Positions 61,947 through 64,000 of a stretch of 64,000 nt of DNA are shown piece by piece; positions within the stretch are counted from its first letter, which is position 1; every line of letters begins with the position of its first letter. Where the stretch lies: assembly GCA_011772205.1 (NCBI GenBank), contig WVZY01000067.1, positions 1 to 64,000 of the forward strand, in the 5' to 3' direction. The translations under genes were made by a program, and so were the position numbers. This DNA comes from Candidatus Latescibacterota bacterium. Its GTDB lineage: Bacteria; Krumholzibacteriota; Krumholzibacteriia; WVZY01. The notes under the pieces are model-generated. The model made no database searches, had not been told where the DNA came from, and saw only the letters and a program-made list of their open reading frames with translations.

Positions 61947-61976
61947 ATTATACTTGTCTTTGATATTCGCTGTCAA
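61947..61976 (-). promoter_or_regulatory. Consensus sigma70 promoter of the TPR glycosyltransferase gene
   Basis: On the minus strand TTGACA (61971-61976), an 18-base spacer and TATAAT (61947-61952) are both perfect to consensus. The predicted start near 61940 gives a leader of about 190 bases before the ATG at 61750, which is unusually long. The plus-strand promoter 62027-62055 diverges from it. Confidence 0.75.
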
Positions 61977-62026: not shown

Positions 62027-62055
62027 TTGACAACGTATAAGATAGTGACTATGAT
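62027..62055 (+). promoter_or_regulatory. Consensus-like sigma70 promoter of the lipoprotein gene
   Basis: TTGACA (62027-62032), a 17-base spacer and TATGAT (62050-62055) match 6/6 and 5/6. The predicted start near 62062 is 37 bases before the ATG at 62099. The gap 61751-62098 thus holds two divergent strong promoters and no gene. Confidence 0.75.
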
Positions 62056-62098: not shown

Positions 62099-62629
62099 AT
62101 GGCCATCCGTTACGTTGGAATTCTTGCATGGCTCGCTCTCTTTGCCATGGTTGGTTGCGCTGGGCGCGGCTCCAAAATGAAAGAGGAGCTTTTGAAATCT
62201 CCATGCAACCTCGCCATCGTGTTTGGCGGTTATGCCACTCCGCTTCCAGGAGGGGCAAAAAGAGAAGACCCCCATTGGGTAAGGATCAAGGTGACGATTT
62301 CGGATTCCTCCTACGATTTTGGCTATTTGAATGATCGGGGCAATTTTATCAGATCTTTCACGGGGGCGGAGGGATCATTCGAGGGTTTGGGAGGATTATA
62401 CTACCCGTTTGCGCTGCGCGCTACCACACCCGACCGGACCGTATATCCGATGAATGCATTTGGAGGCTGCCGGCTTACCGGTGAAACGATCGATGGCGCC
62501 AAAGCGATAAAGCCCGCACTGAATTACGCTTACCGTTCCGGCGCGCGCATAGTGTTTTCGATTCCCGATAAAGCGCGCGTGGCCGTTACACTGTCCGCTA
62601 CACCGCCAAATGGTTTCATAATCGAATGA
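62099..62629 (+). CDS. Predicted lipoprotein sharing a C-terminal domain with the downstream protease
   Basis: The 176-residue protein has a lipoprotein signal (GILAWLALFAMVGC, lipobox AMVGC). GAGG lies 9 bases before the ATG. Its body aligns by eye with residues about 240-370 of the protease encoded at 62843: YDFGYLNDRGNFIR against YDFGYINSAGNFIR, then YYPFALRATTPDRTVYPM against YEFALRDKLDITAVYPL, and in both a final strand near GFIIE/GFVKL. It has no protease motif. It might be a partner or an inhibitor-like companion anchored in a membrane, but that is inference. Confidence 0.75.
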   Translation: MAIRYVGILAWLALFAMVGCAGRGSKMKEELLKSPCNLAIVFGGYATPLPGGAKREDPHWVRIKVTISDSSYDFGYLNDRGNFIRSFTGAEGSFEGLGGLYYPFALRATTPDRTVYPMNAFGGCRLTGETIDGAKAIKPALNYAYRSGARIVFSIPDKARVAVTLSATPPNGFIIE

Positions 62630-62715
62630 AGCTATTTTGGACGCTGCAAATCCGTATTCAGACATTCAACGCGGAGAGATCCTTTTAAAACAAGGTATAA
62701 GCTCCTTATCATGCG

Positions 62716-62744
62716 TTGACAATATGGGACAAATGTGGTAAAAT
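62716..62744 (+). promoter_or_regulatory. Sigma70-like promoter of the metalloprotease gene
   Basis: TTGACA (62716-62721), a 17-base spacer and TAAAAT (62739-62744) match 6/6 and 5/6. The predicted start near 62751 gives a 92-base leader before the ATG at 62843. A run of eight C (62757-62764) lies early in that leader. Confidence 0.7.
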
Positions 62745-62842
62745 ACGGCCAGATTTCCCCCCCCAATTCGGCGAGGGCATGAAATAGAGTTGACAAAAAT
62801 CTTCTTTGCTATCCAAGGGATAGATCTGAGGGAGGGTCCTTT

Positions 62843-64000
62843 ATGCGCTCACTGAAACCGACGGCTGTCTTCTTGTTTCTCCTCTTCCTAAGCTCTGTCA
62901 TGATCCCCACCGCTGCTCAAGCGATAAAGTACGAGGTCGTGGTCTTTGATCCGAACTTCCAGCCTCCTCCAGGGGTGTTTTCCAGCGGCAGGTCGCAGGC
63001 AACCCGCATGATCCTCGATCACATCCGATCGAACTTCAGCTGGGCCGACACGACCGTTCAGGTCGGCACTTCGGCGCCTCCCAGTACCGGCGCGAACGAT
63101 GCCGTGAATACGGTCAAGATCCTGGATAGCTACTCCACGTCTTACTTTTCGCATCGTGGTGACGCCGATTGGCAGACGGAAGCCTGGGGCGTGACATACG
63201 GCGATGACGAGCATTATGCGTTTGGAAGGGACTTCAACAGCTCGGCACCGTTCCAGTCGGCCAATGCATCCAACGAATATGCCAGGGGTATGGGCGGTAC
63301 GATCGCGCACGAGCTCGGTCACGGCCTGAATGCCACCCATACGGGAAATATGAGCGACAAGATGTGCAGTGCTGCCACTGCAGGTGAGAAGGCGATCACG
63401 GACAGATCCTTCACGCTGGCCAACCAGGCGCGGATGCGGAGCGCGGCAAATGCGGGCGGAGCCGCTCCAGCAGGTGGCAGAGGACGGGAAAGGGTAACCG
63501 TTGTATATTCGCATCTCCCCCCCGGCGTTGATCCAACGATCAAGCAAGAAGACAAATGGTACGTCAACGTGACCATCGAGATGTTGGATCCCGCGTATGA
63601 TTTCGGCTATATCAACAGCGCAGGTAATTTCATCCGCCTGGAGGATATCGATTCGTTTTTCGATGTCCAACTTTTCGGCGGCGTCACCTACGAGTTTGCG
63701 CTTAGAGACAAGCTGGACATTACGGCAGTTTATCCGCTCAGCCATTACGGGGAGGCCATTCCGGGCGGCATGGTATTCCCTCCTACAGAGGCCGTCGCGC
63801 CCATTTTGGATGATCTGTACTTCGGTGAGATGGATCTCTGGTTCGAGATTCCCACAGGACCCATGGAGAGTGCGCCAACAGTACCCGTGAACGTCCATCT
63901 TTCCACCGAGGGAAACAATGGATTTGTAAAGCTTCCATACACGCAGATCCCCATGCTCCAGCATTGGGGAATGGTGCTGCTGGCCTTGATCCTGATCGGA
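62843..64000 (+). CDS. Secreted metzincin-like zinc protease with IPTL-CTERM-like tail (cut by window edge)
   Basis: The frame is open from the ATG at 62843 (GGGAGGG upstream) to the window end; 386 residues are visible. A signal peptide (VFLFLLFLSSVMIPTAAQA) is followed by a zinc-protease domain with HELGHGLNATH (156-166), i.e. HExxHxxNxxH. This has the metzincin spacing with Asn in place of the usual Gly. A possible Met-turn is DKMC (172-175). A beta domain shared with the upstream lipoprotein spans about 240-365. The last visible residues, IPMLQHWGMVLLALILIG (369-386), resemble the IPTL-CTERM protein-sorting tail (IPTLSxWG plus hydrophobic helix). Confidence 0.8.
   Translation, partial: MRSLKPTAVFLFLLFLSSVMIPTAAQAIKYEVVVFDPNFQPPPGVFSSGRSQATRMILDHIRSNFSWADTTVQVGTSAPPSTGANDAVNTVKILDSYSTSYFSHRGDADWQTEAWGVTYGDDEHYAFGRDFNSSAPFQSANASNEYARGMGGTIAHELGHGLNATHTGNMSDKMCSAATAGEKAITDRSFTLANQARMRSAANAGGAAPAGGRGRERVTVVYSHLPPGVDPTIKQEDKWYVNVTIEMLDPAYDFGYINSAGNFIRLEDIDSFFDVQLFGGVTYEFALRDKLDITAVYPLSHYGEAIPGGMVFPPTEAVAPILDDLYFGEMDLWFEIPTGPMESAPTVPVNVHLSTEGNNGFVKLPYTQIPMLQHWGMVLLALILIG

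Follow-up and report, generated by a model that had tools for sequence, protein, structure and literature searches.

Neighbouring genes for a putative lipoprotein and a predicted metzincin-like protease share an orphan beta domain in Krumholzibacteriota

Two adjacent genes of Candidatus Latescibacterota bacterium (GCA_011772205.1) encode a putative lipoprotein and a zinc-protease-like protein with a common C-terminal domain. Considering that no family or fold was matched and that a confident copy was detected in just one further genome, this domain is a lineage-restricted orphan rather than a common fold by searches of Pfam, NCBIfam, PDB and viral models. The preferred explanation, to which about an even chance is given, is that a lineage-restricted binding or docking domain was duplicated onto two surface carriers, one of which bears a metzincin-like protease. 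In the proposed mechanism, a single beta-sandwich-like domain would have been duplicated and set on two cell-surface carriers. In the lipoprotein it would follow a lipid-anchored Cys, and in the other protein it would be flanked by a small zinc protease of metzincin-like type and by an IPTL-CTERM tail. The exosortase XrtH would recognise and cut this tail and anchor or export the protease, and the domain would bind a common surface or extracellular target, thereby keeping the protease near its substrate and near the lipoprotein. Both the binding function of the domain and the co-localisation of the two proteins are presumed in this scheme.

The window, namely the whole stretch of 64,000 nucleotides analysed (contig WVZY01000067.1), belongs to a 4.13 Mb draft genome of 81 contigs with 96.5% completeness, and the DNA to its right was also read (locus L002). 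The ORF listing placed both genes where an earlier note on this DNA had put them and on the same strand, the lipoprotein ORF (62099-62629, +, 176 aa) and the protease ORF (62843-64048, +, 401 aa) being neighbours in the same direction (Table 1). The window end falls within the protease gene, 48 bases of which lie beyond position 64000 (L002:2844-4049). Reading to the right of 64000, where the earlier note had pointed, revealed the IPTL-CTERM tail of the protease and then, 3' of the gene at L002:4097-4128 (64096-64127), a hairpin of 13 pairs followed by TTTTTT that resembles an intrinsic terminator. No Rfam elements were found at the locus. Farther to the right, L002:4155-9473 contains successive genes for glycosyltransferase, methyltransferase, ATP-grasp and LPG-synthase-TM-like proteins, perhaps an envelope glycolipid cluster.

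Table 1. Features of the lipoprotein-protease locus (window coordinates)
Feature	Position	Strand	Basis or remark
Promoter TTGACA-18-TATAAT, divergent TPR membrane protein gene	61947..61976	-	12/12 consensus positions; back to back with the lipoprotein promoter
Sigma-70-type promoter TTGACA-17-TATGAT, lipoprotein gene	62027..62055	+	11/12 consensus positions
Lipoprotein gene, 176 aa	62099..62629	+	ORF; no Pfam or NCBIfam match
Putative lipoprotein signal peptide, lipobox AMVGC, candidate lipidated Cys20	62099..62158	+	By eye from the sequence
Shared domain, copy 1 (lipoprotein)	62198..62626	+	BLASTP to copy 2; profile match; all-beta model, mean pLDDT 85
Sigma-70-type promoter TTGACA-17-TAAAAT, protease gene	62716..62744	+	11/12 consensus positions; TG before the -10 element
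Predicted protease gene, 401 aa	62843..64000	+	Continues to 64048 outside the window (L002:2844-4049)
Predicted protease signal peptide, residues 1-27	62843..62923	+	Hydropathy and AQA end
Metzincin-like catalytic region	62924..63460	+	Reprolysin_5, 20 bits, below the cut-off of 27
Zinc motif HELGHGLNATH (residues 156-166), then candidate Met-turn Met174	63308..63340	+	Sequence
Shared domain, copy 2 (protease)	63494..63928	+	Profile match, this copy having contributed to the profile; BLASTP to copy 1, E 1e-16
IPTL-CTERM sorting signal (IPMLQHWG, hydrophobic helix, basic tail)	63947..64000	+	TIGR04174, 26.3 bits; continues to 64045

The shared C-terminal domain claimed in the earlier note proved to be real. 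BLASTP aligned the lipoprotein with the C-terminal domain of the protease at 33% identity (43/130 aa, 63.2 bits, E 1e-16), and the Smith-Waterman score of the pair was 157, whereas shuffled sequences averaged 28 and reached at best 56 in 1000 shuffles (z about 27). The two copies in this genome are adjacent to each other, and the profile search across 80 genomes of the phylum yielded three confident copies, restricted to the host genome and one relative. The third copy resides on contig JAOTUR010000029.1 of a Candidatus Krumholzibacteriia bacterium (hereafter G002) from the same family as the host, where it forms a lipoprotein with the lipobox LFGC and no protease part. Alignment of the three copies displayed 26 invariant columns, including FG, GG, FA-R, YP and NGF. 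The remaining profile matches in the 80 genomes (E 0.017 to 0.096) lay within long ORFs and were taken as chance, and a match of another genome, G028, to the protease was due mainly to the IPTL-CTERM tail and lacked the domain motifs. In a scan covering 84,980 species genomes the G002 contig alone was recovered, a pattern-based result in which distant copies may be missed. Queries with the whole protease against phages and plasmids, and with the domain profile against viral contigs, retrieved nothing.

The domain found no match in Pfam even at E 10 and nothing significant among PDB sequences, and the lipoprotein had no match in NCBIfam. AlphaFold, run with three sequences, predicted the lipoprotein domain as all-beta with a mean pLDDT of 85 and a pTM of 0.80, so that the sequence and the confident model agree on the earlier picture of a zinc-protease-like protein and a lipoprotein with a common beta domain. 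The catalytic region of the protease gave no confident fold (pLDDT 30-47). Foldseek of the lipoprotein domain model against PDB and viral models gave no match at E <= 0.001. The earlier note had raised the concern that the segment might be a common known fold occurring in many unrelated proteins; neither sequence nor fold matched transthyretin-like or other known beta-sandwich families in Pfam, NCBIfam, PDB and Foldseek searches of PDB and the viral library, and a confident copy of the domain occurred in just one further genome. A TssJ-like or transthyretin idea was also considered, in which a type VI complex chain ranked second in Foldseek, and was rejected at E 0.087 and TM 0.38.

The lipoprotein has a hydrophobic leader, MAIRYVGILAWLALFAMVGC, with Cys20 in the AMVGC motif, followed by a polar stretch of 13 residues and the shared domain. 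Compared with the lipobox [LVI][ASTVI][GAS]C, the -2 and -1 residues fit and Met at -3 makes it a weak lipobox, while the homologue in G002 carries LFGC at this place (L020). Cys20 is accordingly a candidate for lipidation.

The protease is organised as a predicted signal peptide (residues 1-27), a region with the zinc motif (156-166) and Met174, a linker rich in Gly and Ala near 203-215, the shared domain at about 218-362 and the IPMLQHWG segment, hydrophobic helix and basic tail. By hydropathy, its N-terminus comprises a hydrophobic stretch at residues 3-27 with an AQA end. Relative to the pattern HExxHxxGxxH, HELGHGLNATH retains the three His and the Glu and carries Asn in place of Gly, and Met174 in DKMC, 8 residues past the third His, is plausibly positioned for a Met-turn. 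The curated metzincin cut-offs were missed, with 20 bits against 27 for Reprolysin_5 (PF13688) and 16 against 190.7 for TIGR03935. No catalytic-region relatives were matched in the 79 other phylum genomes, and no propeptide was evident in the sequence between the signal peptide and the catalytic region. Based on the motif and the sub-threshold Pfam matches, the product of 62843-64048 is a predicted metzincin-like protease, presumably with proteolytic activity, and is not called a member of M12.

The C-terminus of the protease scored 26.3 bits against TIGR04174 of NCBIfam, above the cut-off of 20.5, and the same tail reached 16.1-20.1 bits against Pfam PF18203, slightly under the cut-off of 20.8. 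The tripartite layout of such C-terminal sorting tails has been described (PMC3237569). The host genome also encodes an XrtH (L033:6966-7571, G000:C64) with 97.5 bits against TIGR04177 (cut-off 86), in which Cys, Arg and His fall in the membrane segments where they are expected. This was the only one of the 80 phylum genomes with XrtH above the cut-off, weaker matches being present in 23 others. Since both the IPTL-CTERM and its cognate XrtH exceed the NCBIfam cut-offs, the protease is probably exosortase-sorted and displayed or released by XrtH, which would cleave and anchor it. The shared domain would then sit between the catalytic region and the anchor, with two different anchors employed for one domain. 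Five other proteins of this genome, including a subtilisin-like protease (L012), surpassed the Pfam IPTL-CTERM cut-off, which suggests that XrtH handles several secreted proteins, proteases among them. The IPTL-CTERM proteins besides the present protease were located at L010, L011, L012, L013, L014 and L018, the last being papain-like and below the cut-off. An ORF for a 197-aa membrane protein (L033:7537-8130), with no match in Pfam or NCBIfam, overlaps the end of the XrtH gene, and its product is a possible XrtH partner. The literature search returned no paper naming exosortase H, IPTL-CTERM with an exosortase, or Krumholzibacteriota with an exosortase.

The earlier note had also linked the two genes by promoter type. 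Both TTGACA-17-TAxxAT sites are indeed present, and within the window the exact pattern occurs twice against 0.04 expected; the type is nevertheless ordinary for this genome, which contains 34 such sites compared with 2 of the reversed control pattern. The sites are probably real promoters, and it is likely that they indicate just a strong transcription of both genes by the housekeeping machinery. Considering that the pattern is the general strong promoter type of the genome, it links the two genes weakly, and the idea of a shared-promoter regulon is ruled out by the genome-wide count. The promoter count is also in line with a tandem duplication whose products have no functional link at present, two paralogous envelope proteins that are still neighbours by chance, as are the separate promoters, the identity of only 33% and the lineage-restricted orphan nature of the domain. 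This reading is considered quite unlikely, given that the only two copies of the genome are adjacent and that 26 of their columns are invariant in the third copy too.

In the relative G002, the lipoprotein gene lies on a contig of 20 kb where no protease gene adjoins it. Searches of this genome, which is only 86% complete, detected neither the catalytic region nor IPTL-CTERM, nor XrtH at E 1e-6, and the lipoprotein form thus appears not to depend on this protease. Moreover, the similarity between the two lipoproteins (74 bits) exceeds that of each to the protease copy (51 and 32 bits), a pattern compatible with an older role of the lipoprotein and a fusion that brought the domain to the protease, or with a faster change in the protease copy. 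The lone lipoprotein and the closer lipoprotein-lipoprotein similarity are what would be expected of a domain with a role of its own and favour the binding or docking module. What weighs against this module is that PDB sequences and Foldseek provided no significant structural relative, that only three copies were found, and that the catalytic region was assigned from the motif and sub-threshold Pfam matches. Homotypic binding, in which the two copies would bind each other and the lipoprotein would be the docking site for the protease, is given a small chance: the homology of the domains, the adjacency of the genes and the matching type of their strong promoter-like sites count in its favour, yet the lipoprotein persists in G002 without the protease. 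Similarly improbable is a lipoprotein that would regulate the protease from the membrane, or dock with it, by mimicking the C-terminal domain of an exosortase-anchored metzincin, with the domain as a new family.

A further alternative is that the lipoprotein is a dedicated periplasmic or outer-membrane inhibitor of the protease, immunity-like and comparable to potempins or emfourin, in which case the domain would be a restraining module of the protease released as a separate protein. Potempins are small lipoproteins encoded directly before the KLIKK proteases of Tannerella forsythia (PMC7296668), an arrangement seen here too, where the small lipoprotein gene immediately precedes a codirectional gene for a secreted protease, and adjacency of protease and inhibitor is also known for protealysin and emfourin (M4in) of Serratia, which share one operon and in which the enzyme is intracellular (PMC9505478). 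As no propeptide is evident, some restraint of the protease would be useful. Contrarily, the lipoprotein homologue of G002 has no protease gene nearby and its genome no detected relative of the catalytic region, so the lipoprotein is not a dedicated inhibitor in every host, and each gene has its own promoter-like site, unlike a tight operon. To our knowledge, no domain common to inhibitor and protease has been described for the potempin and emfourin systems, which also counts against this reading, and it is regarded as unlikely. The membrane-held accessory or inhibitor suggested in the earlier note is accordingly not demonstrated, the only other homologue being the G002 lipoprotein with no protease nearby and no relative of the catalytic region, IPTL-CTERM or XrtH.

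The locus provides an unnamed lineage-restricted domain, known from three sequence-diverse copies with a confident predicted fold. One copy is carried by an XrtH/IPTL-CTERM client with predicted enzyme activity, which could help to test the role of XrtH. The pair also offers a simple test case for lipoprotein-protease regulation, and is otherwise an ordinary lineage-specific paralogue pair.

Compared with the M12B metzincin, Reprolysin_5 and fragilysin-type models, the protease resembles them in the HExxHxxNxxH motif, the close downstream Met and the weak profile matches over the active-site stretch, whereas it departs from them in scoring below all curated cut-offs, in the Asn for the usual Gly, in the lack of a visible propeptide and in the predicted surface anchor. 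With XrtH/IPTL-CTERM-sorted proteins (TIGR04177/TIGR04174) it has in common the signal peptide, the tripartite C-terminal signal and a cognate exosortase in the same genome, although its sorting is predicted and its body, a metzincin-like region with an orphan domain, fits no named IPTL-CTERM family. The gene order, with the lipoprotein gene (62099-62629) directly before the protease gene (from 62843), corresponds to that of the potempin/KLIKK pairs of Tannerella forsythia, which differ from a pair with a common domain, a promoter-like site for each gene and a lipoprotein standing alone in a relative. The protealysin-emfourin system likewise places a metalloprotease gene beside that of a small inhibitor, a role possible for the lipoprotein here, while separate promoters, a predicted lipid anchor and a common domain set the present pair apart.
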